A DNA stretch of 64,000 nt from Nigrospora sphaerica. Taxonomy: Eukaryota > Ascomycota > Sordariomycetes > Amphisphaeriales > Apiosporaceae. The notes beneath the pieces were generated by a model. The model had not been told where the DNA came from, did no database searches, and saw only the letters and a program-made list of their open reading frames with translations. The stretch lies in NCBI GenBank assembly GCA_018287875.1, contig JAGVVL010000018.1, forward strand, positions 3,588,501 through 3,652,500. The letters are read 5' to 3'. Within the stretch, counting starts at the first letter, position 1. Each line of letters opens with the position of its first letter. This document shows, piece by piece, positions 36,201 through 64,000 of the stretch. The position numbers and the translations under genes were made by a program.

Positions 36201-39200
36201 GTAGACGGCCGTTTCGACACCACGAGCTTCGAAGGCCCCCACGACGCCCCGGGCCAGCGGAGCGTCGGGCCTATCCGTAAGAACCGAGAGCTTCTGAGGG
36301 GCCGGCGGGTCGACACGGCCGCTCACCACCTTGGTGCTTACGATGGCGGCGTAGCAATGGTAGGGCTCCGGGGCGTCGCGGACGGCTGTGTCGACGCCGG
36401 AGAATCCGACGGCCTTAAGCTCGGCGTCCCAACGGTCGACGCTCACGTAAGGCTCGAGGGCGCGGCCGTCGGCCTCGCCCAGCCACCAGCCTGAGAAGTT
36501 GCCGAAGATGTAGTTGTCGGTGCGGACGGAACCGCACAGCTCGGTGAAGACGAGCAGGCCGCCGGGCCGCAGCAGCGGGTGCAGGTGGCTCAGGCTCTCG
36601 CGTATCGACGCCGTCGCGTGGATAACGTTGGAGGCCACGATGACATCGTACGTCTCGGGCTCGAAGCCCTGGTTGAAGGGGTCCTGCGAGATGTCGAAGA
36701 CGCGGTACTCCATGTTGGGCGCGTAGGCGAAGCGCTCCTGGGCCTGCGGGAAGAATCCGGCCGAGATGTCACTAAATGTGTAGACGCTATAAGCCGGAAG
36801 GCCGCCGGCCGGGCGTAGGAGGCTGCGGAGGATCGACTCAGTCGTGCCGCCGGTGCCCGAACCGACCTCAAGGATGCGAAGGTTAGGCCGCGAGTGTGAG
36901 AGCAGTTTAAAGAAATCGCCCTTATCGAAGCTGGTGGCGTTGTAGATCTCGGCTAGGACGTTCCCTTGCATTAGAGTGTCGAGCGTGTCCTTTTTACCTG
37001 TGAAGATGTCTTCGCAGTTATCGTAGATGCGCTTGACACCGATGCTCTCGGCACCCTTAGCCATCTTTAGCAAGCGCTGGTGTTTCTCCTCGATCATGGA
37101 GCGGCGGGTGTCGGAGCTTAGAGTAAGATAGGCCGTAGCGTCCTCCCCAAGCAGCGGGTATGTCCCCTCGTGGGCGCGCTGCGTCTCCACGACGAGCCAG
37201 TCGCGGAACTTATCAAAGTGCCAGTTGCATGGCTCGAGTCCCCGGATCCTCTCGAGCGTCTCGATCATGCAGAGAAGTGTCATCTCCTCCTGGAGCTTGG
37301 TCTCTTCGGGAATAGTCGTCGGTGGTACGAAAAGGGTCGAGTGATCGACCATTTCAAAGTCGGGGAGCCATTCAAGGCGTGCGGCCGCGTGCGGCTCCTG
37401 CTCGCCAGGCTGAGCCTCGCTTTCGCCGACGGGTGTCAACGTGAGGCCGTCGAGGCGAATGGCAACCGTCTTGTCGCTACCGGTGCCGCAGGTGACTTCG
37501 ACGGACGCCTTGTCATCGGCAATGCTCCACGCCGTGGCCCCCATGGCCGTCTCGCTCTTGGGCGCTACGATGAGGTCCTTGATGTGCGTGGTCACGCAAA
37601 GCCGTTCGAAGTTGCGAGCAACGCCCTTCACCATGGCCACCATCAGGAGCTGGAAGCATGCGTCGATGGCCACGGGGTGAATCGGGAATGCCGAGTCCTC
37701 CTGCTGGCTGCTGTTCAGCTTGAAGGCGGCCTGAGCCACATTGTCCGTCGTAGACGAAATAACGTCAGACATGGCCTGGAACTCGGGCCCATAGCAGATG
37801 CCAATCTTGTCCAGTGCCTGGTACCACCGGGAAGGGGAAACCGCCCGGGTCATATCTTCTGCAGTCGGGACAGGCAGGGGCGCCAGGCTCGTAGGGCTGT
37901 AGGCTCTCACCTGGCCCTCGCAGTGCTTCGTCCAGGACGAGTCACTGTGCGACATGATGCAGAACTCGAACCAGACAGGCTCGGCCAACTTTGCCAACTT
38001 CACCGGGCGGAGAGACGTCACGATCTCGATAGGCTCTTCAGATAGGAGCATGGCCGAGTGCACAGAGGTATTGCGGATCCGGTATCCGGTATGCAGGCCG
38101 GTTATCTGCCGCACAGCCTCGCCCGCCATGGCGACATAGCCAGCCAGTGGAAACACCACGTCGGACCGGACTTTGTGGTCGGCCAGCCACGGCTCGTCGA
38201 CCAGATTGAGCTGGTTGCGCCAGAGAGGCTCCAGCGCCGAACTCTCGGGAACAAGGAGGCCCAGAAGCCGGTGGTGGCTGAAGGGACGAAGTCGCGATTC
38301 CTTAGAGACGCGCGCCTCGTACCAGAACGAACCGCTGCTATGATCCCAGGGGTAGTTGGGAAGGTTGCCGAGTGCGCGGCCCGAGGACGGAACGCCCGAG
38401 TACAGCGCACCGGAGCGCCAGCCAACGGCGACGCCGTACTGGTAGAGGCCGCCAAGAGCGGACAGCGCCGTGTGGCACGCATCCCTGCCTCGGACCAAGG
38501 TCGAGACGTAGTTGCAGTTGGCGCCTGACTCGCCGCAGATCTGGCGCAGAGGGCCGCGCAGCGTGGCATGTGGGCCGACCTCGAGGAAGACGCTGTTCTT
38601 GCTCACGTTCGGACCTTGGGCCTCGATGGCACGCCCGACGGCTTCCGTGAAGCGCACGCGGGACACCAGGTTGGCAACCCAGTAGCCCGGGCCCAGCTCT
38701 TCGCCAGTGATGATCCGCTTATCGGAAACCGAAGAGAACAAGGGAATCCTGCCAGGGCCCGGCGGCGACGGCGCAAGTCCGACCCCCTCGTCGTCGGTAC
38801 GCGACACCCACGATGCTTCCAGGAGCTGCTGGTAGCGGTCGGCAAGGGCAGCCATGTGTTTAGAGTGGTATGCCATGTCGACATTCAGTCTTCGGGCCAT
38901 GGTGTCATTGTTATTCTCTCTGATTCTCGCGAGGACTCGCTCCAGAGCGTCGACTTCGCCGGACAGGGTGGTGCTGGAAGGGGAGTTGTCGCAAGCGATG
39001 GTCACGGCGCCGGCGGCGCCCTCGTCGCCTAAGAAAGCCGTCACGTCGGCGACGCCGAGGCCAACCGCCGCCATGCCGCCCTCACGCGTGCCCGACTTGG
39101 CCACGAAACCGCGGTAGTAGGCAATCATGATGGCCCTCTCGGCCGAGAGCATCCCGGCAGCATAAGCGGCTGCGATCTCGCCACTGGAATGTCCAACCAC

Positions 39201-41518
39201 GGCGGCCGGAGTTACACCGACCCGCCGCAGACGGTTCACCAAGGCCACCTGCAGTGCCGTACAAAGAGGCTGGGACAGCTCGGCCGTCTGAAGCCGGCTC
39301 GACTCGGCGGGGGCGAGTAGTTCGTCTGTGGAAGCCCCGGCGTGTCAGTTTCGGGGCAAAAGTCGGGAATAGGCTGTTCGCGAGGACCGAGAAAGAGAGT
39401 GTGAGTGCTGTCAAGGGAGTTCACATACCTTGGATGTTCCAGTCCGGCGGGTGCGGGAGGCCTTTCAGAACCTGGTTCATGTCGGCCAAGTCTCTTTGGA
39501 AGTGCTCGTCCGTCTGGAGCAGTTCCTTCCCCATCTCGGCCCACTGAGCCCCCTGACCACTGAAGATCATGATGACAGCAGGGTCTGGGCCGAGTACCTT
39601 GCCCGCGGCGGACGTTTCTACGACGCGCCCGTCTGCAGTGGCGAGGAGAAAGGCCCGATGGGGCATGTTCTGGCGGTGATGGGCAAGGGTGTAGGCCAGG
39701 TCGTCGACAGCAGAGGGGAAGCGTTCCAAGTAGCCTTGGATGTCCCCGATCCGCCTCTGCAGCGAATTGGCCGTGTTGGCCGACACCACCAAGAGTCGGG
39801 GTTCCGCAGACGGAATCTCGGAGGACGCGGCAACGGTGCGCCTGGGGGCGACGAACTCAGGGGGTGATTCCAGGATGACCTATCAAGCGTCAGACAAAAA
39901 GCGTCAAATTGATCCGTCAAAAGAGGTCAATCGCGTGTGTATACGTACATGGGCGTTGGACCCTCCGATCCCAAACGAGTTGACGCTTACGCGCTTGTCG
40001 CGCCCGGCGGGCCATGCCTCAGGCTTGACAGGCACAGTAAGCTTGTTCTCTTTGAGGGCAACTGGGGAGGCAGCCTGCGTTAGTGACGGCTTCGTATTAT
40101 TCCTCTATAATAGATGAAAACAACTCACTCTTGGGATTTGGTTTAGAGAACCGCATGTTCGGGGGGATCGTGTTGTTCTCCAGCGCGAGCACTCCCTTAA
40201 TTACGCTCGTGATGCCAGATGCACCTTCCGAGTGGCCGACATTGGGTTTCACCTTTTGGCCGCCCACATTCAGCACTGTCCGACAAAGACGACAAAAGTA
40301 TCGGACCCAGTCCAGAAGAGGACGTCGAGTATACTCACCGAGCCAATATACACGCCCTCGGCTCCAAAAACGTTGCCCACTGCGTTAACCTCGAGTGGAT
40401 CTCCGGTAGGGGTACCTGTTCCGTGACACTTTGATGATGCGGAAGTTAGCAAGATTGGCCTCTCCCTCGAAGTACATATTATAACAAGCAGGAGCTCACT
40501 TCGACAAAGGCCGTCTTGCACGGGTCGAGCCCGGCATCGTTATAAACCTTTCGCATGAGCGCTTCGTGCGCATCTCCATTGGGCATCATGATGTTCTGGC
40601 TTCGCCCGTCGCTGTTCGTGCCCGAATTCCGAATCACGGCACGGATCGGGTTACCGTCGCGGATAGCGTCATCCAGGCGCTTGATGTATACGGCATTCAC
40701 AGCCTCGCCACGGCCGTAGCCATCCGCAGAGGCGTCAAAAGACTTACAGGCGCCATCGGGTGCTAACACGCCTTCCTCGGTCATAGCGGTCGAATTTGTT
40801 GGGGCTATGATGAGGTTCACGCCGCAGGCGATAGCACCCGTGCAATCTCCGTGCTGCACGGCGCGGAAGGCTTTGTGGAGGGCAATGAGAGATGCAGAAC
40901 ACCCGGTTTTGATCACCATACTGCATGGGAACCATCAAGTCAGCGCCCCAGAAAGCAACGGACAAACGGCGACGTCATGTACCTCGGGCCCTTTAAATCG
41001 TATTCGTACGACACGCGGTTAGCAAGCATGTAGTCGCCGTGACCCAGTAATAGGTAGCCGCCATTGTGTTGCTGTTCACGCGCCTCGAGCTGCAGCCAAT
41101 CCTCTCCAAAGGTGCCAACATAGCACGCGATATCTTTGCCGCGGAAATCGGCCTCGCCGGCGCTCTCGAGGGCTTCGCGTGCGATTTCTAACAGCATGCG
41201 TTGTTGGGGGTCAGATCTCTCTACTTCTTTCCTGCTCATGGAGAAGAAGCTGGTGTCGAGGGCGCCGAGCTCCTCGTCAAGGAAGTAGCCGAACTCGGCA
41301 TTGATGGCACTCCGCTTGCCTCGCTTGCCGTTGTGGCCGGCAGCGTTATATCGGTTGGGAGGGACGGGACCACGAAGATCCTCCCGGGTCACAAGAGTAT
41401 TCCAAAAAGCATCTGCATCACGCACGCCACCGGGAAGGCGAAGGGCCATTCCACAAATGGCCACGACCGGTTCCGTCGAGGCTGGAACGTGAACAGGCGA
41501 GTTGGAAACGACACTCAT
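33261..41518 (-). CDS. Highly reducing type I polyketide synthase (KS-AT-DH-cMT-ER-KR-ACP)
   Basis: Ten exons: 41518-40983, 40920-40500, 40428-40339, 40252-40129, 40061-39949, 39879-39429, 39325-35298, 35221-35147, 35079-34739, 34686-33261; 2534 aa. KS about 18-430: active-site TGCSASL, then [11 protein letters not shown] and [12 protein letters not shown] histidines. AT about 530-850 with FSGQGAQW and GHSSGE. DH about 930-1220 with [11 protein letters not shown] and [11 protein letters not shown]-methyltransferase about 1350-1560 with an intact [16 protein letters not shown] motif. ER about 1770-2110 with [18 protein letters not shown] about 2190-2370 with [10 protein letters not shown] and catalytic [12 protein letters not shown] with LGLDSL (Ser2487). 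All domains are present, so a reduced, methylated polyketide is expected; release is unassigned because no thioesterase is seen. The DH motif has Ser for the usual Gly. The start is the first in-frame ATG. No regulator gene or transporter was recognised beside it. Confidence 0.96.
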
Positions 41519-43851
41519 CTTCAATAACAGTTGCTCCCTACCAAAATATAAGAAGGTGAACGTGAACGTAATGGCAATACGTGTAGTAGAAGTAAAAGGC
41601 GCTTAGTAACTTGAACTAACGTGTAAGAGACTAGAGACGCCGAGTATATAATGGATGAATTTCAATGCGAAGAGTATAGATACTTATAGTGGCTTTGTAT
41701 CTTGACAGGCCCATAAATTGTACGTTTTAGCTAAACCTTGATACTACTCAGTGGACATGAATTAAGCTTCGGGGCTACGGAGTACTTGGGCCGCACTAAA
41801 AGTACAAGTCCTCGTCGTAGCTGGGGCTTATAGCAGGAGGTTTCGCTCATGCTATGCTATGTACTGCTAAGACAGAAATGGAACATGGGCAACAGAAGGT
41901 GAGTAAGAACGTAGTCATCTAATCCCAGAAGCGCATCTGAATTAAGGTTTCTGCGGGTCAGTGTCCGGAACACGACTCGAGTCCGGGGAACTCTTATCCC
42001 AACTGGTTCGGAAAATGCGATTTATAGCGCGTCCCCACCAGTACTTCAGAATTTCAGATGAGACTTGTTACCTAGAGCGTTCCGTATAGGCGTGCCGTAC
42101 TTAAATTGTGGCGCAAGTCTTTTTGAGCCTCCCTCTCTGTGATGCTGTGTTTTGATTGGTCAGATTAGGCTATTGAACCAAAATTGGCATTTTCCGGGCC
42201 TGCTGGGATATCGGTCGTAGGGCCTTCGAATGAGCACGTACAGTGGAGACTCAGGGGTCCAAGTACGGAAAAGTCCAGATACGGAAGACATGGGGTGTCA
42301 GACATGAATCCTTATCCCGATGACTAGTTGCGACACAATCTTCGTTGGTCATACCAATCGCGGCGCTGTAAATAGTTCGAAACCAGACTCATCTGTGATT
42401 AGTTCTTCCCACCGGCCATGCATCACCGCCCTACGCCCCTGTCGCGACGCCTGAATGATAGTAATAGCTCCCATGTATCTGTGGGGTCATTTGGGGCCTT
42501 GGGTTGCCATAAGGCCCCAGGCTCCTCCTCATTATCTTTCACACCCTCGAAATGGTGCAAAAAGGGACTCAATATATTTTTAAGCCAGTTTTGGGCACAA
42601 AACAACGTTGAGCGCCATCGGTGTCTGCATTACTGTTTTCGTTGCAGACGTATTGGGGGGTGACATATGTGGAGCTTTCCGGAAGCCAATAACGCCTGAT
42701 CGGCGAATCTACCGATCCGGTCTTTTCCGTGCCCGCTGCCATGAAAGGCAGCAAATACAACGGTTGCAAGCTTGGAAGACCATTTAAGCGAGGTCGAGGC
42801 GGTCACCGCCGGCGACCACCGGCGCTTCCGCTCAGTGAGCTTCCCGGGACCTCGGAAATGGAACCAACCGATCCGCTGCAGGAACCGGACCTTGCAGACA
42901 TCGGAAACGAGTGGAGAATTTACCACAAAAGACCTACGCTCTTCCCGTCTAAAGGGTACGTCATATGTTGCTTTTCGTAGAGCCGTCTCTGATGTCTCGG
43001 TGAATAAATCGGGATCAGCACGCCGTATCCTGACGAGAAGAAACCCGCTTCTGGGTCCGCAATCGTTGGAATTCCGACCCAGTATTATAAGACACCCATC
43101 TATCACGTGCACCCGGCTACAAATTCCCTATTACCCGAGAGAGTCAGCGAGTCTCCTTCACGCACCCAGATACCAGGGAATAGAATCAGAGACATGGTTA
43201 TACCTTCTAGCTTCACCAGCTTCCTAGTATATTGTCATCTTTTGTGCTAGGTGCTGACCAACGCTTTACCCCACCAAGTCCCTACGGGATCTGCAAGTGC
43301 AGGTTTAGCTATTACACAGTGCCTTCAAGCCCCTGTACGCCAAGGAATGTGACGTCGGTAGGTTCTTGCTACGCGCCATTGACGCTAATGCCATAGCCAT
43401 CTTATCCATCTGACTGCCGCACCTACTTGTATGTTCACAGCTCGAACCATAACGGCCGCTGGCACCCCAAGTGGGATAAAAACAGGGTAAGAACTGCTGA
43501 AATCCCCATGTGCTCTTCATGGGTTGCCTACGGAGGTTATGGATATTTAACCCATACGGCACAGCGTGAGGTACATTGGAGATGTAGCAAGACATGGCCC
43601 GTATGCCAGCTTCAACTTGTCCTCCAGCTCGGCGCGGCAGCAGGCAGGTAATGAAACCACGCTACTAGCCATATTTTTTCTGGCCCTCCCCTTAGCTCTG
43701 AAACTATCCTGTCTATCTTGATGCTAATATGTGCGCCTCCACATTGCAGCATACTCATGACTATATCTGCCCCGCTCGCCGCTCGACCCCACGCAGTCAA
43801 ATTGGTTTCCCTATGGCAATCTCTGAATTTCCCATACAGAATTAGAGACAA
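41519..43851. other. 2.3-kb PKS promoter region, no gene recognised
   Basis: Between the PKS start and the P450 stop. It is AT-richer than the flanking genes. Frames up to about 160 codons exist on both strands at 42630-43230 but look like no known family. It should hold the PKS promoter. Confidence 0.6.
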
Positions 43852-48840: not shown

Positions 48841-49510
48841 TTAATACCAAAGCTTTGAGTTGGGCTCAATGCCCTGTGCTTTGCAGTGGTCGTAGTACAT
48901 CTTGGCAAAGCTGAAGCAGTCCATCGTCTCGCGTAAACTGTCGTCGTCATTTAAAAACTCCAGGCTTCCTGTGACAGTAAAAAGCACCTCGGCACCAGCT
49001 CCCAGGAACAGTGTGTGAATGGTACCCGGGTTCTCAACCACATAATCTCCAGTGTTAGCGGTCCAGTCGTACCTAGGGAGAATTGTGTTAGTTCCATAGC
49101 CGCCGTACTATGTTCTTTCCGCGACAGCAAGGGCCTAGAGAATAGGGTGGAACTCACTCCCTGTACCGCCAGGGGCCGGCGGTAGTGACGGCTGACACGG
49201 TGCCCCGGTGTCTGTGCTTCCCCAGCCAGCAGTCGACGGGCGTTCGAAGGGATATAACAAAGGTACCCGACCTCGTCTCGAAACGCAGGGGCTTGAGCTC
49301 GAGTGTGCCTACCCAGGGATGCCATAGGGTGTCTTTTGTCGAATCGATGTAGACATCCGGCGAGCTGTACCTGTCGACAAAGGCCAGATCCTCACGGTCC
49401 TTGTCCGTCAAGACCGACTCCGCCTGGTCGTCGTGTGGCGACTCGCCACTCTTCGCAGGCGCTCGTGGTGGCGCCACAGACTGGTCTTCCGTCAGAGGAG
49501 CGGGGGCCAT
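48841..49510 (-). CDS. Small cupin protein, dihydroxyacetophenone dioxygenase-like
   Basis: Two exons, 49510-49158 and 49072-48841, give 194 aa. Single-cupin enzyme: LWHPWVGTLELKPLRFETRSGTFVISLRTPVDCWLGKHRHRG carries the first metal-binding His cluster (HRH), and VENPGTIHTLF carries the second. It resembles the ChrR-like cupins related to 2,4'-dihydroxyacetophenone dioxygenase, which use iron to cleave C-C bonds; the substrate here is unknown. The frame is open upstream to 49588, but the ATG at 49510 (MAPAPLTEDQ) fits the family, and the preceding translation looks like leader. It lies between the PKS/P450 group and the UstYa gene, so it could tailor either product. Intron of 85 nt with donor GTGAGT and acceptor CCCTAG. 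Confidence 0.82.
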
Positions 49511-52500
49511 GGTTTGTGTGAAAGGTAGCAATGTGGTGAGGTAAAGGGGTGGGGTAGGCGTCGAACGGAGCTGAGAGACGAGTCGCAACCGGCGCTCTCT
49601 ACATATATATGTATTTCCAATTCGGCAGGCTCGCGCTAGTAAATAGCTTAGATGGATAGTATTTTACCGAGTCGGCTGTCGGCGTCTAGTTGCCATTTTC
49701 GCGGCAAGTTCACCAGGCCCCCCTCATGCACTTGGTCAATATCGGGTTTCAGGGTACCCTCGCTAGTGGCTGGGCTTGCGCCAGTCGCTGTGTTGGCAAC
49801 ACGGCAGTGGCTTATTTTGTACATTTTAAGGCAGAGTACTTTTTAGTGCATTGCATGTATTTTCCGTGCCATGCAAAGTACGTTGGATGTGGGGGAGCGC
49901 CGTCTGAAGGATTTTCGGCCCAGGTTAGGCCGTGGGTAAGCCCGCCACCCATTACGGCTGTGTTCTGTGAAATAGCGGGGCTGGGATTGGGCGTTGAGAG
50001 ACGATCGCTTCGACAGCTTGCACAATCCGTGGCACTAATTTGCTTTCTTTCCCTTTCACTGGTTGAGGTCTGAAACCAAGCCAGCGTTAGTTTGAAGCAA
50101 GTTGCTGATTTTAGCCGAAAAAGATAACCCTGGCCTTACCCCGCAAGTCCCCGACACGCTGCGGTATTTTTTGCTTTCCTCATAGTTGACGATCATGGCT
50201 CTTGTTAGCATTCGCAGCCGCATGGCCAGTGTTTGCGCTGATATTGGCTAAGCCCACGACTTCCAGGGTTCGCCTAGTTGGGCGAAAAGACACGTGTATC
50301 CTCTCAAAGGCCTCCCCCGCTTGTACCTCTTATTTCCTCAACTTTCTCGTAACAAGTGTCGCGATACACAAACCCAGAGCGACAAAATCCCAAGGCTTGG
50401 CCTTCTTTTGCCCGTTTCCCTTGCCTCACGTAATATGCATGGCCCTTGGCCTGATGGTCCACTGCCTCGTTGACGTGGGGTAATGGCGCGTCCGGCACGA
50501 ATCTTCCTTTTCAGAAGGCGCAAAGGAGCTCCCAGCCATCACCGACACCGTACTTCAGCAGCCGCTTAGGGGGACGAGGGTGTGGATACGGCAGTACCAG
50601 TCGGCTTAGACCTGAGGGACGCGCGCGTGTCGAGTCGCCGAGTAACGTCTCACTTATGGTGTGAATTATTGATGTACCGGGCAACGTAAGGATCACGTGC
50701 ATCATGACGGCGCTGAACCAGCCAAAAATGGGTCTGGCTACGCCCGTCTCGAAGGTCGTAAGCCGCTTGTCGATGTTATGCTTAACGACAACAACGCGCG
50801 CCTCAAGGCAAACACGGATCAGCTCCCCTGCGAAGGGGCAGCCGACGTCGGTGATGATATCGTGGGACCAGTTATTCGGTCTCAGTCGACACGGCCGCGG
50901 CGGGGCCGAAGCCGGGTGCCGGGTGCCGGGCACGTCACGACACGTAACTTAGGCCGTTTCCTCCCACAGCATCCACTCGCGTTGTCGATCACGTCCCCGC
51001 CGTAGTGCGCCGGGGGAGTTTAACCATCCGGCAGGCATGGGCCATAGGCACTGTGCCTGTGCGGTACTGATTGGCGTAGATGACCGGCAAATGGCTGTGT
51101 GGTCGGGGTGCGTCAGCCATGGCAGTTCAAGGTGCTTTTTTCCAATTGCCCATAATCAAATGTAAGATGATTTCGCTAAATTTAGGTTTCCATTGCTGAT
51201 GACAGTGGCATGCTTGATATAAGTCCTACCGTCGTACAAGTTGTCACTGAAGTACATTTCAATTCTGCTGTGACGGTGGTGCAACTGGCCAAGTTTTCGC
51301 TGTCAATACTGGTTGTTTCAGGTAATTAGATGAGCCACGTCTCTTTTGCCTTATTGGCCTCGATCAGGGCTGCATTGCTATCCCCACTGAATCTTAGCAT
51401 GGCAAGTATCTGGGTATTACATGATAAAGCAACAGTGCCAGAGGGCATAGCACAAGTCTGTCACCCGACACTTACACGGTATTACGCGCAAATGCAACTA
51501 TATGTAATCCAAACTGATGAGATTAAGAGTAAAGCTAACTACGCTTTACAGCAACCGCTCCAGTCTCTACTAAAGACTCTACTGCTTCCGCACAAGTGGT
51601 GGGTTTCAACTGTTTGCCCAGTTATAGTGCGAGGCCGGTGACAGTCGTTCGTGCGAGTGCCTTTTCGTATCCGCCGGCCTTCGAGTGCCATCTCGAATTA
51701 CTGCAAAGAATATTCACTTACTAGGGTTGTCTATTCTCGGCCTTTTGGCCCATTGTCGTGGTCATGGTGCAGAACTCGGGCTTGTGCGACGGAAAAAGAA
51801 CGGTAGAGTTGCGTCGTAGCCAAGGTTAAACTACCGTCCCCTCGGAGGATATTTTACAGCTTCTTCTATATTCGGAATCTTCGGGCATCTATCTGATCTA
51901 CTATCCCATCAGTTGATGAATAGAAAAAGCCCATGACCAGCACAGCCGAAGCTGACGACGACTGGACTTGGTTCCCAGCGTGGTCAAGAACTAAATTTGA
52001 TGAACATGTAAACATCTCCTACGTCTTCCGTGGATGATATCCAATATTGAAAACCCAAATGTGTTCTGAGAGCGACGCGACGGGGCAACAGATCCGCAAG
52101 TCGCTTCATTTCCCATAACCGGCATTCTTCGCCACCGATCAATCATGGACAGGATGACAAACATGGAGAAAAGCTAAACCGTGCCTTAAGTCGAAGCGAT
52201 ACATACAGCTTTCACCATGAATTTCTATTGATGCTGCGGCATTGGAAATGTCGTGCGCGTGTGCGAATTAGACAATGAGGCCCATCTAAGCTCCTTAATC
52301 GCCCAAACGCACATTACGCTAGAGACATCGCACCGTCAGATGAATTTGCGGGGACTGTAATTACCTAGGAAGAGCCGAGGCTACGACTAACAGAAAGGGC
52401 TGGTTGGGTAGCGTGGTTATGATCCTAGGGTAAGACCACATAGCCCGGGAGGCCACATATACGCAAATTTGGACGGAAATAGACTTCCATGCTAGAAATG

Positions 52501-52859: not shown

Positions 52860-54065
52860 TTAAGTTTCACCCGAGTGCATCTTTTCAATCCAAAGCTTCT
52901 GGACCTTCTCGCCCTGAGATATTACCCTCTCGTTATGATGCACGAACTGGTACATGTCCTCACCTGCAGGGCCTGCGCCTTCGTGTGTGATTGCCTCGAC
53001 GTGATCCCATGGCACCCCTGGATGCGCCTCTTCGTCCGCACGCATCTGGCGGTCAAAGTTTTCATTCATCTCCGGAAAACCCCGTGCAGCGTAAAAGGCC
53101 GAATAGTCGGCCCAGAGGTGGTCATGTGTCCATGATTGCAAGGCATTCAAATCACGGCAACGGTGCCCATCGGGGTGCACATCCCACTGAACATAATCTA
53201 CGGTGCCATGAAACGAGACGTCTGGGTGGCACATGAGACGCTCCCGAATGTGATCAATGCAGTGAAGTGTGTGCCGGCCAGTGCGTGACTGGGCCGGATC
53301 AGGGGACGTAAGCACCTCGCGAACATGTTCCTAGGGCAAAAGTTTAGATACAGTAGGTTGTGAGTATACACAAGAGGCTTCAAGGGCTTGACTTACGAGG
53401 CAGTGAAACGTGTGATAAGCCCCGACCTGGTACACGTAATGGCTACCGCTGTCGGGATGTTGAAGCGACGGCGGCAGGCCGTTGTCGGCCGCCCACTGTT
53501 CGTGAATTGAAACAATGCCGACATCTTGAAAACAGTTATTCGAAGCACGCATCCTTGGGCTGGTACGGACATATCGAGAGATTATAGCATTGTGCACGAG
53601 AGAGTGAACGACAGTTGCCAATCCTTACCTTCTAGAAGCTTGTGCCAAAATTGTTCCGCTTCAGGCGTCCTGTCAGCTGCGTTATGGATACGAAACGACG
53701 ATGCAGTAATGTTCTGGAGCTCGAGACTCCAGTCTGAAGTGGCGTCAATGTCAGCATGGCAGTACGTGCAAGGGTGCTGATGGAGATCTGGGCCAGTGTA
53801 ACTCACAGTCCATGGGATACTCGTTCGTGTCCAGCCGGGTCTCAATGCGGTACGATAACCACAACGATTTGGCGCCAAAAACGGCGAGAGCGACGAGCGC
53901 CGCTTCAAGGAGAGCGAAAATGGCTACAAGGGTATAGATGATGGCCTGAGAAGAGGTCACCCTCCGGCCAACCACTGCCTCACAGCGGTTACAGAGAAGG
54001 ACAGTAACCCCCTTGTCATCTAGGAGCTTCTGGTAATCGGGAGCGTCTGAGTGATAAGACATCAT
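52860..54065 (-). CDS. UstYa/DUF3328 family oxidase
   Basis: Four exons, 54065-53807, 53733-53629, 53524-53397 and 53330-52860, give 320 aa. Domain layout as in UstYa: a short cytosolic N-terminus (with a CNRC pair), one membrane helix at about residues 37-68 (AIIYTLVAIFALLEAALVALAVFGA), then a lumenal domain with both diagnostic motifs, HTFHC (159-163) and HTLHC (184-188), followed by HIRERLMCHPD. UstYa proteins are copper-dependent oxidases that cyclise, hydroxylate or halogenate peptide and other products in ustiloxin, phomopsin, asperipin and cyclochlorotine pathways (family knowledge). Both HxxHC motifs are intact, so activity is plausible. It is divergent from the repeat precursor gene 1.4 kb away, the arrangement expected for a ribosomal-peptide maturase. 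Only one copy is present, as in asperipin-2a rather than ustiloxin. Start could be 54065 or the adjacent ATG at 54062. Confidence 0.92.
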
Positions 54066-55507
54066 AATGCGCCTTGCATGTGTTCAGAAAAGGACTTGGA
54101 TTGAAAGACGTGGCCCAGCGTAAGGGCCAAAGAGAGGATACGGGATATCACAGCGTTTTTGACAGCAAGTCGGGAGGGAGGGCGCCAGAGCTGCTTTTCG
54201 ATAAATGCCAGGCCTGGAACTGGGGCCGCTGGCTAAACCCCGTAAAATTCAACTGGTTCCCAGCCACTTAGAGCTCCACATAGAATGTTTGTTATTTACC
54301 ACTCGAAGCAACGCAAACATTGTGCCAAGCCGAGGTCTCGGTGATTCATGCAGCCGTGGCAAACTTGCCAAATCCCGCATCACCCTCGATCAAACATAAC
54401 AGCTCAATTCCGAACCAATAAATCCAATCGCTGGTTCTCGCTAGACGACACTGCGACCCAGCCTTTTGGTATAGCACGGCCTTATGTTCAAAACACCGCG
54501 CTCTGTGCAGAAAGTCCAACAAAACAAGTTGGGATACCTGTCGGGATGGTCATTACCACTCTCCAGCCTGTGATGTTCACCGCAAGGCATGGGAACACGT
54601 TGGGTTATCCACCACTCTCTGGAAACACCTGAAATGAGGGGTATGCCCGAGATGCATGAACGCTCCCTCGTCAAGGGTTTATAAGTTTCTTTGTTTGCTG
54701 AGTTGAACCTCATCCCTGCTTTCATTCTCGCGGCAGCGGCGGCAACAATTCCCAGCGGCCACCTGTAGAAACAATCCCCGTTCTATGCCGCACGAAGTAA
54801 GGCGGAACCAGCCGTTGAAGCCGTTGTACGGGAGGTAAGTCATCAGACTGATGTGTTGGTTTTCCATCAGTCGCCAAGGTATCACTCAGCGATGCAACCC
54901 CTCAGCCGTAAGCAAAAGGTGAGTGCCACATGCCCAACTGAGGTCAGGGAGAACATCGACGATGCAAGTTGATTAACAAGCAAACATGGTACCATATTGT
55001 TAGATCGGTTTGCCACCAGCACAAAGTATGCAACAGCTTTGCAACAACGATAAAGCCATATATTGATAACATGGCCTTGAATAATTGGTTATTTCCTGTG
55101 ATAAGTTGGCATTGCCAACATGACCAAGAAGCGTAGTCCGTACAATAGCCAATAACGGCACGAACTGCGACCAGATCACAATCCAAACGCCGCATATGCT
55201 CGAAAATCAACAGTTTGCAGTTTGTGACACCGGCCAGTTCATGTTTCCGACCTATCTCGGGAAACGGTAGCGCGATGGAAGTTTTCATCGCTTGAAATCA
55301 AGGACGGCTCGCCAACGCACTCACTGCTTCGGGACTCACCCCACGAAACCAACGTACATATATAGTCGGATCCCATTCCCCAGACGCCTTCACAAATCAA
55401 CCATCCACCCACTATCAAAGGTTCTACTTGCCCGTACGTATCTTTCACTCTACATTCCCCGCCCGCCATCACTATATTGCTACCGCCTACCATTCAAAAT
55501 CTCTACA
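54066..55507. other. Divergent promoter of UstYa and precursor genes
   Basis: A 1.4-kb space that should hold both promoters. No coding sequence was recognised. A TATA-like element lies at its right end (separate entry). Confidence 0.65.
55357..55365 (+). promoter_or_regulatory. TATA-like element of precursor gene
   Basis: CATATATAG lies about 145 bases upstream of the precursor ATG, followed by a C/T/A-rich leader with no ATG in frame before 55508. Position and sequence fit a core promoter of a highly expressed secreted peptide. Confidence 0.5.
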
Positions 55508-55981
55508 ATGACCATTCAAACCATCCTCATCGCCGCTCTCATGGGCGGTAACGCCGTTCTCGCGCTGCCCCAGCCCAAGGGCCTTCCTCAGCAGATAAGC
55601 GGGGATACCGGGCCGCTGCCACGTCGGGGCGGTGGCGCCTGGGCTTGGTCCGCCGCCCACAAGGTCATTGAAGAGGCCGAGAAAGACAATAACCGCGGTT
55701 CCGAGCCGCTGTCACGTCGAGGTGGCGGCGCATGGACTTGGTCTGCTGCCAACAAGGTCATCGAAGAGGCCAAGAAAGAGGAGACGCCTGGCTTTGAGCC
55801 TCTTTCTCGACGTGGTGGCGGAGCCTGGGCTTGTTCCGCCGCCCACAAGATCATCGAAGAGGCCGAGCAAGACAATACCCCCGGTTCCGAATCGCTGTCA
55901 CGTCGCGGCGGCGGAGCGTGGACTTGGCCCACTGCCAACAAGGTTATCGAGGCGGCCACAGAGAGTGGCAATGAGCATTAG
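55508..55981 (+). CDS. Secreted four-repeat kexin-processed peptide precursor (candidate RiPP precursor)
   Basis: Single exon, 157 aa. Residues 1-19 form a signal peptide (MTIQTILIAALMGGNAVLA) and 20-38 a short pro-segment. Four repeats of exactly 31 residues begin with Arg-Arg at 39, 70, 101 and 132. Each continues GGGAW-x-W/C, then S/P-A/T-A-H/N-K-V/I-I-E-E/A-A, and all but the last end in an acidic spacer and LS before the next RR. RR is a Kex2 site, so the Golgi protease would release near-identical peptides of about 25-29 residues starting GGGAW. This architecture is that of UstA-type (dikaritin) precursors and other kexin-processed fungal peptides. The precursor has no Tyr at all; the conserved aromatic residues are Trp. 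Repeat 3 has Cys in place of the second Trp. The frame is open further upstream, but the ATG at 55508 alone gives a signal peptide. The gene is divergent from UstYa. Alternatives: a pheromone-like or effector repeat protein. Confidence 0.88.
   Translation: MTIQTILIAALMGGNAVLALPQPKGLPQQISGDTGPLPRRGGGAWAWSAAHKVIEEAEKDNNRGSEPLSRRGGGAWTWSAANKVIEEAKKEETPGFEPLSRRGGGAWACSAAHKIIEEAEQDNTPGSESLSRRGGGAWTWPTANKVIEAATESGNEH
55622..55981 (+). repeat. 93-bp tandem repeats encoding the peptide units
   Basis: Units 55622-55714, 55715-55807, 55808-55900 and a partial 55901-55981. Units 1 and 3 share AWA, SAAH and EEAE/DN features; units 2 and 4 share AWTW and AN. This suggests that a two-unit block was duplicated. 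Confidence 0.92.
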
Positions 55982-57263
55982 GCTGCTATTGCTGCAGGAG
56001 TCATGTCAAAATGTGGCGCAATGTCAGCAATTTTCGGTCTTACAGACCCGGAGAATGTCTAGAGAGGTCGATGAAAGTCTAGACGGCTACGTACGATGGC
56101 ACTGTGAGTGTGAGTGGAGGATTCACTTGGCGCTGCGGGCACGTTCTTTACTGCAAGTCTACTTCACGTACCGCAACCTGTCGTTATCTAAGGGTATGAA
56201 TAATTACTTATTCCGGCCTGGAAGGGACCTTTCTATGCGATGACCACAGAAAAGCAGTTGTCCTGATATAGTCGATGGACAAAGACTATGCTGCATCACG
56301 GGCAGAACGCAGTGGATGTTGCAAGTGCGCCTCTTGTACGTGAACATAAGCAGCTGCATAAGTCCTACCAGCATTGCACATACCCATTCAGGTTTGTTAT
56401 TCGTGTCTCTCCTGAGGTTTAAGACTTAACAGGGAAGGGGTTGCCAAAAGTAGGTCGTGTGGAGGTTCCTGGGCATCTACTGCAAAGACGAAGCTAAATA
56501 CCCGGCTTGGTAGGGGGCCCATTTGAGAACTGGGTAAACGGTCTTTGAATTTCAAGTAGTCCTCGGCAGTCACCATATACTTTCAACACCCCGCATTACG
56601 GTCAAGGTATGGCAGCAGATTTATTGTTACTGTAAACAACGGGAACAATGCAGCTACGGACTGCGAACATGCAGTGCCCCCGGTCCTCGGGCAGGATTGT
56701 GGGCACGCTTCGCCACGTCCTGGGGTATCCAAACTCTATCCGGTTGCACCCGCGGCATAGTTTATCAATCCTGACGTACGTCACCCAATGGGCTAGTCAC
56801 AACGTATCGCTGGCTCCGTTTTTCGCTGGGATTCGGCCGATATAAAAAGTTAATGCGGCAACCGTCTTTGCGGACATGGTTATAACGAAGGCAACCACCC
56901 GCGCCCGGAAAGGTAATGAGATGCTGTCGTGGACACGTCCCACTATCGCAGCCTCGTACCTATCAACAGCGTGACGGCCGGGGCCGTGTTTGCTGCAAGG
57001 GGCGTCGAGTCTCTTTTACTGTTCCCCCAGCATAACCAGTTCCCTCCTTTTCCCACACACGGAATCGCCGGAGTGGATAGAAAGACATCGGAAGAAGTCC
57101 GCTCCTCGGATAAAGTCCGTTGCTCGGAGAAAGTCCGTTGCTCGGAAGAAGTCCGCTCCTCGGTGGCATTCAATCACGAGCCCGCCCGCTCTCAGTCGTC
57201 TAAATTTGCGGCGCCGACTTATGCTCCCTCGCCTCATCGCATCACCTCAATAGAGACACCACC
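55982..57263. other. Intergenic region with minisatellite
   Basis: 3' region of the precursor gene and promoter of the amidohydrolase. It contains a four-unit 18-bp minisatellite near the right end. No further gene was recognised. Confidence 0.65.
57091..57162. repeat. 18-bp minisatellite, four units
   Basis: Units at 57091, 57109, 57127 and 57145, of the form GAAGAAGTCCGCTCCTCG. Units 1 and 4 are identical; 2 and 3 differ by a few bases. It ends about 100 bases before the amidohydrolase ATG, so it lies in its promoter or leader. Confidence 0.92.
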
Positions 57264-58193
57264 ATGCTCTGGCGCTTTTTTGCCCTTCAAGTGGCGACAG
57301 CCGCTGCTACCTGCACGCCGGCGGTCCCGTCACAGTCTTGGAACTGCCACACACACTCGTTCGACCCGGCCGCACACCCTTTCAAGTCGTCCCGTTCCTA
57401 CACGCCTGAGCCCGCGCCTTTGAGCGCTCTCTGTGCCGAAGCCCGCACTGACCACATCCTCCTGGTCCAGGCAAGCATTGAAGACGGCCAGGCAGGACTC
57501 ATAGACAACCTGGAACATGCAAAAGCCATATGCCCGGAAACGACGTTTCGCGGGGTCGTCTTCGCGGATACGGAGCCAGGCCGCGAACTTGAGCGTCTGA
57601 GCCCCGCCGACTTCGACCGCATGCACGCCCTCGGCGTGCGCAACATCCGCATCCGCGGGCCAACCGACGCCAACACGACCCACGCCCGCGTCCAATTCGA
57701 ATGCGCTGCCGCGCTGGACCCTGTGCGCCGCTTTGGCTGGAGCCTCTCGGCACAGCTACCGCTGGCTGTGTGGGCCGAGCTCGCCGCCGACATCGTGGCT
57801 CCGGACGGGCCGCTTACGGGTGTACCGATCATAGCAGACCACTGCGGGAGCGCGACGCCGGCCGACCTGGGCTCAGCGGAACTTGAGGTTTTCGCGGGTC
57901 TGTTAAGACTGGGCCGCGTCACCGTCAAGGTGGGTGCGCTTCACCGTCGTTCACCGGGCACCATTGCGCGAATGGAGGGCGTGGTACGCCGCTTCACCGA
58001 GGCGGGCCCGGATAACATCGTCTGGGGCAGCGACTGGCCGCATGTTAACTCGAGCGCTGCCGGTCATGAACCATCATCGCCTTTGGCCGGAGTCGACACG
58101 GACCTAGAATTACGTTACCTACGGGCTTGGCTGTCAGACGAGCAGTGGCGGAAAATGATGGTCGACAACCCTGCTGCCCTGTTTACATCATGA
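57264..58193 (+). CDS. Secreted amidohydrolase-2 family metal-dependent hydrolase
   Basis: Single exon, 309 aa. Starts with a likely signal peptide (MLWRFFALQVATAAATC), unusual for this mostly cytosolic TIM-barrel family. Metal ligands are visible: H29-x-H31 in SWNCHTHSFDP, the histidine in VPIIADHCGSA, and the catalytic aspartate in NIVWGSDWPHVN. The fold resembles the 2-pyrone-4,6-dicarboxylate lactonase/amidohydrolase_2 group, which hydrolyses lactones or decarboxylates aromatic acids; the substrate here is unknown. It starts 1.3 kb downstream of the peptide precursor on the same strand. If it shares the secretory route it could act on the peptide, but that is inference. Codon usage is GC-rich like the core genes rather than the AT-richer surroundings. 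Confidence 0.85.
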   Translation: MLWRFFALQVATAAATCTPAVPSQSWNCHTHSFDPAAHPFKSSRSYTPEPAPLSALCAEARTDHILLVQASIEDGQAGLIDNLEHAKAICPETTFRGVVFADTEPGRELERLSPADFDRMHALGVRNIRIRGPTDANTTHARVQFECAAALDPVRRFGWSLSAQLPLAVWAELAADIVAPDGPLTGVPIIADHCGSATPADLGSAELEVFAGLLRLGRVTVKVGALHRRSPGTIARMEGVVRRFTEAGPDNIVWGSDWPHVNSSAAGHEPSSPLAGVDTDLELRYLRAWLSDEQWRKMMVDNPAALFTS

Positions 58194-58474: not shown

Positions 58475-60124
58475 TTAAGCGCCAGGTTCATCATGGCTAT
58501 AAGATATCGAGCGCTGTGCGGATCCCACTTTCGCCATGTCATCTAGCCCTATATTGGCATTTCCCTGTTCAAAGTATCCTTGCTCGTCGACGCCCTGCTC
58601 GATATCGGTCTCCCCTAAATCGATCACTGTGATATTCCGCTTTGACTCAGAATGTGGCAATCTTCTCGAACTCCGGCGTCCGGATCCGTAATGGCTCGAA
58701 GAGTGGTAGGAATTCTTTGTCGTAGAATCGTTGCGCCCTGTCACCTTACCATATACCTGAAGGAGAATTTTCCCCAGCGAAGGCATGCAGGCGCATATTA
58801 TTCCTAATATCGTTAGACTAAGGTTGGCAAGCTTTGGTGGCTACCCGGTATAGGTTTTTAACTCACCAACATTGATCTCGACGGTCGACCATAATCCCAC
58901 GGGCAACTGGTCCCAGGTAGGATTCAGGGAGTTTGCGAACCCCAGGAGCGACTGGAGTCGCAGAATGCTGACGACGCTGAAGCTGTACCAATACATCAGC
59001 AGGGGCTCGAACTTAGCAGGGCGGCTGTCGTACAAGGTTCCCATAGCAAACATGGCGCCCACACCAATCTTCTTCTTCCTGTTGATCTGCAGCTTTTTTA
59101 GCTGCCAGAGCGGAATGGCCAGCATCCAGAAGTCCAAGAAGATAGAGATGGCCGCGTTGGCCCAGGCAAGGTGGTTAACGTTGATGCAACTCCCCTGGGC
59201 CTCACCATCCCACCGGGTCCAATAGAAGGCGATCGGACGACATTGAAAGATGCCGGTTAGGACGAATATAACGCCAAAGACAGCGTTGAAAGCCACGGTA
59301 CTCCACAAGAGACGTCGCGTAGTTATACCCGGAAAGATCCGTAGATAAAAGAAGAGAATTGACATCTTGAGGAGTGTGATCTCAAGGAAATATAGCAACT
59401 CCATGAAGTAGATAGCGCGACCGAGGGATTGGATGTGCGCAAAAGGTACCTTCCAAACGTCCTGGCCTATGCCGTTATCGAGGAGGCCATACTTGTTCAG
59501 AATAGTTAAAGGGGTTCCGCACAGGAGTGTGGCCAAAATCAGCCAGTCGTCGGCACCAAGCTCTACGTCCCTTCGGATGAGGCCGTTATGGAAGAGTCGA
59601 AGAAGAACGCAGGTGGCTGAGACGACACCCATGGTTGCCGATATAATATGAAACGATTCACCACTATCGCGAATCGGAGCATTGCAGGCCACTTCGGTAA
59701 GGTTCTTAGTCACTTAGAAACGGCGCAAGTTAGCCGACGACCGAGGCGCATATGATGAGTTGGCCGGGGGTAGAGAAGGGTCTTGACGACGGCTTACCCA
59801 GGGCCTGTTTTATATGACACCGCGACGTAACGCACTCAGTGACAGCAGCTTGGAAATCCAGGCTGCTGCACATGCAGGTCATGTCTGTGGGCGCGCATCC
59901 CGAGTGTGGGACCTCCTCGCCCAGGCAGAGCAACTGTGCAAGGTGGGTGGAAACGTTAGTACAGCTGCCAGACACAAAAGCAAAGCTCCTCGGTTATCAG
60001 GGCTTACAGCGCAGTTTGGTAGCGACCCGAGATATGTAGTGAGGGCATCGTCGCTACCTGCAGCTTGGGCCAAGCTGACAGAAAAAAACCAGACGAGGAA
60101 AAGAAAGAAGCTGGTGAGCCTCAT
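58475..60124 (-). CDS. PTH11-type receptor with N-terminal CFEM domain
   Basis: Four exons, 60124-60008, 59933-59798, 59712-58867 and 58803-58475, give 475 aa. Signal peptide (MRLTSFFLFLVWFFSVSLAQA), then a CFEM domain at about residues 25-95 with eight cysteines: NCALLC, SGC, MTCMC, TEC, SRC and VAC. Seven helices follow, with family motifs GADDWLILATLL, LLYFLEITLLKMSILFFYLRIFPG, GIFQCRPIAFYW and NAAISIFLDFWMLAIPLWQLKKLQ. The tail of about 100 residues is Ser/basic rich (GSGRRSSRRLPHSESK). This is the full PTH11 layout; the founding member in rice blast senses surfaces during infection. The ligand here is unknown. Exons 1 and 2 join within the CFEM domain and restore its cysteine pattern, which supports the splice. 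Confidence 0.92.
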
Positions 60125-60911: not shown

Positions 60912-63574
60912 TTGACGGGTATTATTATTATTATTCTTACACCTAGCGACCTATTTAGGCCATGAGGACCCCCTGCGCATCTTAGCCTAGGAAAACCGTT
61001 CCGGGCTAACGTCCGGCCGGGTGAAAAACCTAGGTTCCGCTGCGTCGTACCGCTTCTATCTACTCTTTGACCTGTCATACCGAGATCGGGCTCAGCGCGC
61101 CCGCTTCCTAGCTGATAAGTTGATTCGCTAGCTGGAACATGTCCAGCCTTCCGGAGCGGAGTAGCCATCTTGCGATAATTCCTGCTTTTCCGGGGGTGTC
61201 GAGCATCCTGTCCGTGTCTATCGGTCCTCCTAGAGCTTAGATAAGATGCTCTCGTCTTTCTCTTTCGCGTGGGCAGAAAACGAGGATATGCCGGACGGTC
61301 TCCCTGCCCTGACTGCAGACGCACCAGGGGCTGTCGAAGCCTGGGACCCTACGCTTAAAAAGGAAGTCTCGCAGCCCGATCTTGCCAGTCCTCGCTTGGA
61401 CAAGGATGGAGCTCTCGGCCTTATGGAGTCCCTTATGGAGCTTGAGGACGTGCTTGTCTGGCGGCATTTTAGTTGCTGCCGGTGTTCGTGTTGTTCGATT
61501 TTGCTGCGCTTGTTGCCATCTTTGAAGCCAGTCTCTCTCCTCAGCCTTATATGCTGAGTCTCCAGCTAGCCATTCGTTTAGCCACCTCTTACGATCGGGA
61601 GCGTCGGGGCCTTTCGGTCTGCGCCGGCGAGTTAGTCTTGTTAGGATCCATCTAGCTGCGTTTTCGTATCTCGCTTGGATAAGTGATGCGATACGCGGCT
61701 GTTGGAGCCTCTCTTCCAATGCCGCCACCCTTCTGTTGAGCCACGTGTCTAAGGGGGACACGTAAGCTTCCGTTTCTAGTACTGTGGTGGCCGTGGCTTT
61801 GAAAGCTCCTGTGATATTTCGGAGGCACTCTATTTGGACGTCGTTGAGTGCCTTGGCTCGATTTTTCGAGATCTAGCGGTGCCACTCTGAAGCTCCATAG
61901 CCTATCGCAGACTATACGACAGCTATATAGACTTGGCGGGCTCGTTAGAGAGATGCGCCCCACGTCGAGCCGGCTATCCGGTTTAGAGCGTAGACCTGCG
62001 TCGCCATCTTCTTCGATATCGACTGGATATGGACGTCTTAGCGGAGACGTCTATCCACCTGGATGCTAAGGACGCGGCAGGAGTCTTCTGGTTCGATTTC
62101 GTGACCTTCTAAGGCTATCTTTGTATCCGGACCTTTCCGTCTTCGAGAGAAGTAAACTAGGTGATATTTCTGGACTGCAAAGGTTATACCGTAGCTGACT
62201 GCCCATTCTTTGCAGACCCTATAAGCAGCTTCTAGCCGCTCGCAGGTCTGCTCTAGGTTTAAGCCGAAGCCCACGAGGTTTATGTCGTCTGCGAAAGCTA
62301 TAGTAGCTATCCCTGGTACAGCGCGGAGGGCCTTATAGAGACCGGCTATATAAAGGCAGAAGAGGATAGGCGATAAGGGTGAGCCCTGCAGGACGCCTAC
62401 TGGGACTAAGATCTCGTCCGATTCCTGGCCATCGAAGAACAGCGTAGTGGACCGGTTAGATAAGAAGCTTCGGATCCAGCTAATAGTCCATATAGGGACC
62501 CTCAGCGCTCGCAGGTTAGCGAGGAGCCTTCTATAGTCGACGGAGTCGAAAGCGCCTGAGATATCCAGCGATAGAAGGGTTGCTGCGCCTCCATGTTTCC
62601 AGGCTGTGCGGACTAGGTCCGTTAGCAACCGTAAGGCTGTTTCTGTGGAGCGGCCTTTCCGGTTGCCCATCTGTTCGTCCGGGAGCAGCCCGTTTTCTTC
62701 GGCAAAGCTGGCTAGCCGTTGCGCCAGCAGGCTCTCGATCACCTTCCCCATGGTGTTAAGTAGCGCGATAGGTCTCCATTCGCCGGCTTGGTGGTACTCG
62801 TTTGGCTGCTTTCTTGGTTTCCGGAGGATAACGGTCACTGCTTTGCGGAACGCTGTTGGATAGTATCCTATACGCCAGCATGCTTCCGCTAGGGAGGCTA
62901 AGGCCTGGAAGAGGGGCTTTCCTAAGCGCTTAAGGAATCCGTTTGGAAGCTGGTCTGGTCCGGGTGCTTTCCACTGGCCTGCCTTGCTTAAGACGTCTTG
63001 GACCTGCTCCGCTGTCACCTCGCCGTCGATATCGAGAGGCGCTGCGAGCTGGTTTGTTGTACGGAAGCCGGTATGCATAGCCTTAGGGAGAGGGTAAAAC
63101 CTCTCCCGGAAGGCCTCCGTTTTCTCCTTATGGGTCGTTGCTTCGCCTCGCGGTGTATGAAGCGTGGGGACGGCTGGAGGTAGCGGCGGTGCGGCTCCTT
63201 CGGTTCTGGCCCATCTCGCGATGTTCCAGACGCCAGCTGGCTGGCTAGAGGCCTCGTGAAGCATGTTTCTCCAGGTCGCTGTCTTTGCAGTGCGGATCGT
63301 TTTCTTTTTCGTAAGGGATGCTTGCCGAAGAGCTCGCCAGGCTGCGTCTGTCCTGTCGGATAGCCATGTTCGCTGGGCTCGTCTCTCCTCCTCTATAGCT
63401 TCTTTTGTTTCGTGGTTCCACCATGCCTTGCCTCTCCTCTTAGAGTGGCGGAGGGGGGCAACTAGGTCGGCTATCCGAGTTAGCTCCTTAGTTAACGTTT
63501 CGGTGTATCTATCGATTTCCCCCGGTGTCTCGAGTAGCCCTGGCTGCGGAAGGTGTGTCGATTGACGGGTATTA
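60912..63574 (-). mobile_element. 5'-truncated Tad-like non-LTR retrotransposon (LINE) with 13-bp TSD
   Basis: A direct repeat TTGACGGGTATTA occurs at 60912-60924 and 63562-63574 and brackets the element, so it is the target-site duplication. The element body (60925-63561, minus orientation) ends in a short AAT/TAA-type repeat next to the left duplication, as in Tad/I-type LINEs. It encodes reverse transcriptase and a C-terminal zinc-knuckle-like region but no endonuclease, so it is truncated at its 5' end. Confidence 0.88.
61108..63561 (-). pseudogene. LINE reverse transcriptase with five in-frame stops
   Basis: One continuous frame of about 818 codons runs from the 5' truncation point to the natural stop at 61110-61108. 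RT motifs: KAPGPDQLPNGFLKRLG, WRPIALLNTMGKVIE, LSLDISGAFDSVDY, QGSPLSPILF and FADDINLVG (catalytic Asp pair intact). After the RT it has SAIGYGASEWH and a CX2C-type knuckle near the end (WCVCSQGRETVRHILVFCP). Five nonsense codons interrupt it: four at about 61870-62040 and one at about 61235. At least two lie where relatives have Trp, so TGG-to-TAG changes are likely. No frameshift is present. Transposition-incompetent; domain names are from family knowledge. Confidence 0.88.
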
Positions 63575-64000
63575 GTTGCTTCCACTGAACTGATGCACCC
63601 CAATAAACCTCTGTGTGTCCTGTTTGCATGCTACGCGCAACCAGTACTAATGCGCAGCTCTGGAGCGTAGATCAGTGGGAACTGCATAATGACTTCATCG
63701 AATTCGCAGTGGCCTCGGGAAAATGCAGCCGACTACGCCCTTCAACCGACGGCGGTCAGTTGACTGAACTGGGGACGGTCCAGGACTGTTGGATGCGACG
63801 ATTCGTGCCGCTATAGCTTACTTATCTGGCTGCAGCACCAAAAATTCCAAAAGAATGAAATCAATAACAGGACAGTATTTATGTTAAAGATTGGCGCCCT
63901 CAAAGTAGGTAGCTGATGCGTGCCACCACGGGCCCCGGGGGGGTTAATAACCTAGCCTACTAAACTGGATACCGTGGACATAAATAGGCTATTAAGAGCA
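63575..64000. other. Host sequence right of LINE, no gene seen
   Basis: This is continuous with the sequence left of 60912 if the element is removed. A run of C/G near 63930-63945 and AT-rich tracts are present; no gene was recognised. Confidence 0.6.

Follow-up and report, generated by a model that had tools for sequence, protein, structure and literature searches.

Does a Tyr-free, Trp-containing, putatively secreted repeat protein that is encoded beside an oxidase of the UstYa (DUF3328) family belong to a dikaritin-type pathway, and is Trp the residue that the oxidase modifies? The question arises from a pair of genes in a 64,000-nucleotide stretch of Nigrospora sphaerica DNA (assembly GCA_018287875.1, contig JAGVVL010000018.1, positions 3,588,501 to 3,652,500), which we call the window. 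It lies on contig C10 of a 51.6 Mb genome in 33 contigs, with the precursor gene about 88 kb from the end of C10. The features discussed are listed in Table 1.

Table 1. Features of the gene pair and its surroundings, in window positions.
Feature	Position	Strand	Remarks
UstYa (DUF3328) gene	52860..54065	-	four exons, 320 aa; Pfam UstYa
UstYa exon 1	53807..54065	-	carries hydrophobic (membrane) stretch
UstYa exon 2	53629..53733	-	exon model
UstYa exon 3	53397..53524	-	first copper motif HTFHC at 53400-53414
UstYa exon 4	52860..53330	-	second copper motif HTLHC at 53259-53273
Stretch between start codons	54066..55507	.	1,442 bp; may act as shared promoter
Precursor gene	55508..55981	+	157 aa; model without intron; ATG at 55508, stop codon ends at 55981; signal-like N-terminus, propeptide, four repeats, stop
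Signal-peptide-like segment MTIQTILIAALMGGNAVLAL	55508..55567	+	by eye and hydropathy; N-terminus similar in P0001
Repeat 1: RRGGGAWAWSAAHKVIEEAEKDNNRGSEPLS	55622..55714	+	31 residues
Repeat 2: RRGGGAWTWSAANKVIEEAKKEETPGFEPLS	55715..55807	+	31 residues
Repeat 3: RRGGGAWACSAAHKIIEEAEQDNTPGSESLS	55808..55900	+	31 residues; Cys replaces second Trp
Repeat 4: RRGGGAWTWPTANKVIEAATESGNEH	55901..55978	+	clipped, 26 residues
Amidohydrolase gene	57264-58190	+	ORF scan
Fungal-rhodopsin gene	58844-59713	-	ORF scan
Partial sulfotransferase frame	50514-50948	-	profile match 27.9 bits
ChrR-cupin-like frame	49157-49663	-	below cut-off
Reverse-transcriptase frame	62041-63630	-	ORF scan

The putative signal peptide of the precursor coincides with its hydropathy peak, a 12-residue stretch from residue 6 with a mean of 1.98. 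The repeat units begin at residues 39, 70, 101 and 132, and the 93-bp array that encodes them has the highest TRF score (385) of the 15 rows for the window. A preliminary description of the window had announced four 31-residue repeats; the number and the spacing of 31 stand, but the fourth unit is clipped. It also had each repeat opened by Arg-Arg and GGGAW, as is the case in all four units (RRGGGAW), and kexin cleavage is predicted at the Arg-Arg that precedes each of them (31, 31, 31 and 26 residues). The precursor contains seven Trp, one Phe, one Cys and, again as described, no Tyr. The W-x-W pair ascribed to the repeats was slightly overstated: it is present in three of the four units and reads W-A-C in repeat 3.

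The units are 65% identical in the coding frame, more than in either remaining forward frame (51% and 39%). For their first 19 residues the six unit pairs have dN values of 0.05-0.19 and dS values of 0.61-1.00, and Arg-Arg, Gly-Gly-Gly and Ala are constant in the units despite many synonymous codon changes. A relative found elsewhere, P0001, is a protein of 96 aa with two units that matches 58% of the query at 69% identity; it conserves the signal, the propeptide and two RRGGGAW-x-WSA units. The low dN relative to dS, the codon variation and the conservation in P0001 together show that the repeats, dibasic sites included, are selected as protein. Constraint extends about 17 residues beyond Arg-Arg, far past W-x-W. 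The first Trp is conserved in six of six units (the four in the window and the two of P0001), the second in five.

Beyond P0001, two protein searches, the first limited to the best 7,990 candidates by shared words, returned no relative of the precursor, and none was found in viral and prokaryote contigs. The adjoining UstYa has a relative as well, P0002, which is 84% identical to exon 4 over 79% of the exon. The P0001 contig measures 10,976 bases and the P0002 contigs at most 6,557; we saw no contig shared by the two, in gene calls from fungal exons that may miss genes. Among 20 of the 33 papers with GGGAW in their text, no title concerned fungal peptides. A protein search of the genome found no second copy of the precursor; of its three weak matches (E 0.65, 0.98 and 2.2), one is in a frame on C12 that overlaps a membrane-type ORF of 576 aa, one in a short frame at the C9 UstYa locus that includes a membrane-like stretch, and one on C16. 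The degenerate DNA pattern for RRGGGAW matches the genome 11 times, four times in the precursor itself, and the reversed pattern matches 12 times. The other seven matches were rejected as further precursors; none lies in a repeat protein, and no frame holds more than one copy.

The layout of signal, propeptide and dibasic-flanked Trp repeats is also that of sexual alpha-pheromone precursors, whose repeats follow the pattern W-C-x3-G-Q-x-C-W. The genome contains no exact match to this pattern, and thus no separate pheromone gene was identified. However, the motif is absent from the units too, and 98.6% of 216 putative fungal pheromones were without a nearby DUF3328 gene (PMC7329392). We consider it very improbable that the window gene encodes a pheromone.

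The partner gene is an intact UstYa with two HxxHC motifs, as the preliminary description had it. Its 320-aa model has three introns, predicted from the genomic sequence, with boundaries placed by eye from GT..AG and frame; the Pfam UstYa match has an E value of 9.3e-20 and 71.9 bits against a cut-off of 25, a hydrophobic stretch spans approximately residues 42-64, and the motifs HTFHC and HTLHC occupy residues 159-163 and 184-188. Two HxxHC motifs have been suggested as the mark of RiPP-related DUF3328 members (PMC12048977, in part), and the window UstYa carries both. DUF3328 proteins bind two coppers via HxxHC-HxxHC, and changing these residues to alanine abolished the activity of CctR (PMC12435403). 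The spacing of the motifs is 20 residues in the window protein compared with 23-35 in 13 pairs found by pattern at other UstYa places in this genome. The window holds no further UstYa match, and the protein is only 27-37% identical to the six other UstYa places in the genome that match it; it therefore represents a separate branch. A decayed sister from the same branch is found on C11 (L041:1862-2112; C11:264361-264611). The pieces recovered there match at 79% along 34 residues (E 7e-17), 67% along 24 (E 3e-5) and 100% along 8 (E 0.02) and are squeezed into about 250 bases, so that it is a relic that has lost internal parts; the 5 kb examined hold no remnant of a precursor. Among solved structures, no match to the window UstYa was obtained at E values up to 1.

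The two genes are divergent, as first described, with start codons that face apart across 1,442 bp. Is this proximity meaningful? The genome contains 52 UstYa matches, 38 of them gene-level, and merging at 15 kb reduces these to 25 loci. Positions no more than 1.5 kb from one of the 37 gene-level matches other than that of the window amount to 0.22% of the genome. We examined 13 of the 24 other loci, hand-picked and mostly higher-scoring, for tandem arrays that have 2.8 copies or more and a period divisible by 3 and no shorter than 30 bp. Such arrays occur at seven of the 13, 0.7-3.1 kb from the UstYa match; six are wholly open in at least one frame, and the seventh (L036) is interrupted by stops. 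Apart from the window array, none was present in 112 kb of control sequence, a non-random set made up of the window, flanks, loci taken for a pattern or weak match, and the C11 relic. A looser array detector also responded to Arg-rich frames at L022, one of the control loci. With the sequence divided into rounded blocks, Fisher tests give p 0.006 for 7/13 versus 0/11, and p 0.016 if 6/13 are counted, values that serve only as a guide since the control is not random. Given the constraint on the repeats, the relative P0001 and the recurrence of arrays beside UstYa in this genome but not in the control, the pairing in the window is very likely functional, and the locus, as judged from its genes, likely of the dikaritin type, with a Kex2-processed precursor and a DUF3328 oxidase. 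About half of the examined UstYa loci adjoin a repeat precursor, so that this single fungus could serve for the study of many peptides of this sort.

The seven arrays are themselves diverse. Those of L026 (711-1168; C10:3523210-3523667) and L028 (1815-2265; C9:405214-405664) share the core DNNVDAAATRAGWLY(I/T)K in units AATRAGWLY(I/T)K, separated by Lys-Arg or, mostly in L026, by Lys-Glu-Arg; they are probably dikaritin loci that arose by duplication and whose core combines Trp with Tyr. At L031 (3098-3264; C5:1315097-1315263) units of the form KR-SETxxVxEDYVGGFEV adjoin UstYa matches, and tyrosinase matches lie within about 10 kb of the array (C5:1317661, 1320134 and 1323311); this locus looks like a cluster of the ustiloxin/phomopsin type. 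Tyr-containing arrays also lie beside UstYa at L037 (5704-5978; C7:732703-732977), L032 (142-436; C5:4261141-4261435) and L036 (621-1403; C7:2199120-2199902). A single Arg, not a dibasic site, stands between the units of L037 and L032, and the array of L036 meets stops in every frame, perhaps on account of introns. The UstYa-linked units at L039 (8109-8995; C1:7499108-7499994), APHHKTKGGKGRKQQRDVDE, contain His-His and neither Tyr nor Trp, and recall the di-histidine precursor types in the available part of PMC7329392. More than one frame is open at L026, L028, L032, L037 and L039, where the coding frame was chosen by eye; the units of L036, which has no frame open through the array, were read directly. 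L026 has one more array, left uncounted because its period of 41 bp is not divisible by 3. A literature search on the core letters of these arrays returned no match.

The window pair shares with these seven loci the tandem array close to UstYa. It differs in composition: in the by-eye choice of frames, Tyr is present in six of the seven other arrays and His-His in one, and only the array of the window has Trp without Tyr. The position of the core may differ too, the likely core preceding the basic site in the GWLYIK and DYVGGFE units and following it in the window. Ustiloxin and phomopsin clusters carry a tyrosinase in addition to a Tyr core; the window precursor has no Tyr, and no tyrosinase match was found in the window.

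Published dikaritin clusters have been recognised by the closeness of a DUF3328 gene to the gene of a precursor that has a signal peptide and tandem, kexin-parted repeats (PMC9632046). The window has the DUF3328 gene, the repeats of at least 10 residues with putative kexin sites between them, and the proximity; its signal peptide is putative, a hydrophobic N-terminus judged by hydropathy that recurs in P0001. Counted by distance from precursor genes, DUF3328 genes are most frequent in the immediately adjacent position (PMC7329392). The nearest parallel is asperipin-2a, which also has one DUF3328 gene and a Kex2 repeat precursor (PMC7329392) and no peptidase gene (PMC12048977), a precedent for a pathway of this make-up. 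However, the asperipin-2a links involve Tyr (PMC7329392; PMC12186524; both in part), which the window precursor does not have. The window system, known from its genes alone, further differs in its Arg-Arg sites, in a conserved stretch after the site and in the longer constraint. Repeats with Trp are also found in Kex2-processed repeat proteins (KEPs) of type P-3 (Fonsecaea, Cladophialophora, Galerina, Psilocybe and Coprinellus), with a DUF3328 gene within 15 genes in four of seven members; there the Trp is accompanied by Pro (PMC7329392).

From the genes as predicted, we consider it likely that the precursor and the UstYa form one pathway, a small RiPP locus of the dikaritin type. The putative signal peptide would take the precursor into the secretory pathway, where Kex2 (the genome has one kexin-type P domain) would cut after each Arg-Arg. 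This would release four peptides that start with GGGAW, three of 29 residues and one of 24. The adjoining membrane-anchored UstYa, with its paired HxxHC motifs for two coppers, may then oxidise these peptides, as its family and neighbourhood suggest. Since the precursor is free of Tyr, the invariant first Trp would be the aromatic residue most likely to be attacked, perhaps with a bond to the second Trp or to another residue close by; this is the weakest step. The stretch WxWSAAxKVIEEA could be a recognition 'follower' that is removed afterwards, or it could belong to the product itself, which is probably a secreted modified peptide of a known general type with an unusual, Tyr-free sequence. 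As a kind this is already known: UstYa genes beside Kex2 repeat precursors, W-containing ones included, are widespread (PMC7329392). The sequence family is new, and so is a setting that has neither Tyr nor tyrosinase.

Trp is a plausible site of modification in the precursor; roughly half, or slightly less, of the likelihood that we give to the pathway falls to Trp as the target and the remainder to other residues or to changes other than a cross-link. Against Trp stand the Cys at the position of the second Trp in repeat 3 and a constrained stretch far longer than W-x-W. Among 7,878 precursors in the available part of PMC7329392, Trp is found in 20.5% beside DUF3328 genes versus 24.5% away from them, whereas the values for Tyr are 65.6% and 38.2%. 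In literature coverage that mostly excluded subscription papers, no title or opening of an abstract described a UstYa/DUF3328 protein acting on Trp. Consequently, the related dikaritin pathway of the preliminary description stands as regards a DUF3328 gene near a Kex2-repeat precursor, with arrays at six (seven) of 13 other loci; its modified Trp is still hypothetical, given that Trp is not enriched in print and the second Trp is not invariant. That this is a two-gene dikaritin-like pathway in which a divergent dicopper UstYa makes a Trp-centred cross-link in GGGAW peptides, recognised by their helical follower, is possible but tentative.

A reading that overlaps with this one keeps the pathway and places the oxidation elsewhere than on Trp, or replaces the cross-link by hydroxylation, desaturation or halogenation. 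The reactions linked to DUF3328 enzymes include macrocyclisation and isomerisation as well as halogenation and hydroxylation (PMC12435403), phomopsins contain dehydroamino acids (a reference title in PMC12186524), and the array of L039 has neither Tyr nor Trp. The first Trp, kept in every unit, nevertheless remains the strongest aromatic candidate, and we regard this variant as a realistic possibility that falls short of probable.

The cores of the best-known dikaritins are short, and the constrained stretch of the window precursor exceeds them, which argues against the pathway. Two such cores, YAIG and YVIP, are named in PMC7329392. The separate contigs of P0001 and P0002 and the lack of a precursor remnant beside the C11 relic also speak against the pathway. 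The main rival explanation holds that Kex2 releases linear peptides of 24-29 residues, repellent- or effector-like and folded as an amphipathic helix, and that the UstYa serves something else. The reach of the constraint after Arg-Arg would fit such peptides. In the six units (four here, two of P0001) the stretch WxWSAAxKVIEEA has a helix-type hydrophobic moment of 0.34-0.47, a value reached by 1-7% of shuffles, and the predicted structure has a helix over each unit at a mean pLDDT of 36.9, too low to trust. The amphipathic pattern fits a recognition follower and a linear bioactive peptide alike. In the available part of PMC7329392, 78% of known repeat precursors are without a nearby DUF3328 gene, and Ustilago Rep1 yields water-repellent peptides. 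However, the UstYa gene adjoins the precursor here, and such pairing is habitual in this genome; we consider the linear peptides rather unlikely. In the dikaritin-type reading, with one oxidase, one precursor, no Tyr and no tyrosinase match in the window, a shift in peptide mass would indicate a target other than Tyr. The locus thus offers a small system in which the range of residues accepted by DUF3328 copper oxidases can be tested.

Further tailoring functions were sought around the pair. As the preliminary description stated for tyrosinase and S41 peptidase, neither has a match in the window; the nearest tyrosinase match (C10:3574799-3575323) lies about 13 kb before it, and S41 peptidase has one weak match in the whole genome. 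Of its statement that there is no transporter nearby, this much can be said: none was among the scanned frames, which from 42 kb on comprise 21 of the 33 listed ORFs of at least 110 aa. Of the remaining 12, five are parts of the pair or overlap with it and seven lie outside it, and the scores of a genome-wide MFS search cover nine of 515 candidates. The sulfotransferase-like frame is doubtful as a tailoring enzyme, as it covers only profile positions 70-195 of 215 (27.9 bits versus 22.8), and by eye no nearby frame holds its missing start. To our knowledge, none of the surrounding genes (amidohydrolase, rhodopsin, sulfotransferase, cupin, polyketide synthase or reverse transcriptase) is a recognised dikaritin tailoring enzyme. 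Polyketide synthase exons (KS, AT, DH, methyltransferase, KR and ACP; at about 33-42 kb) and an adjoining ankyrin-repeat gene, together at 31015-41602, are a separate secondary-metabolite cluster. An 18-bp tandem repeat of 4.2 copies (57088-57163) lies just upstream of the amidohydrolase gene.
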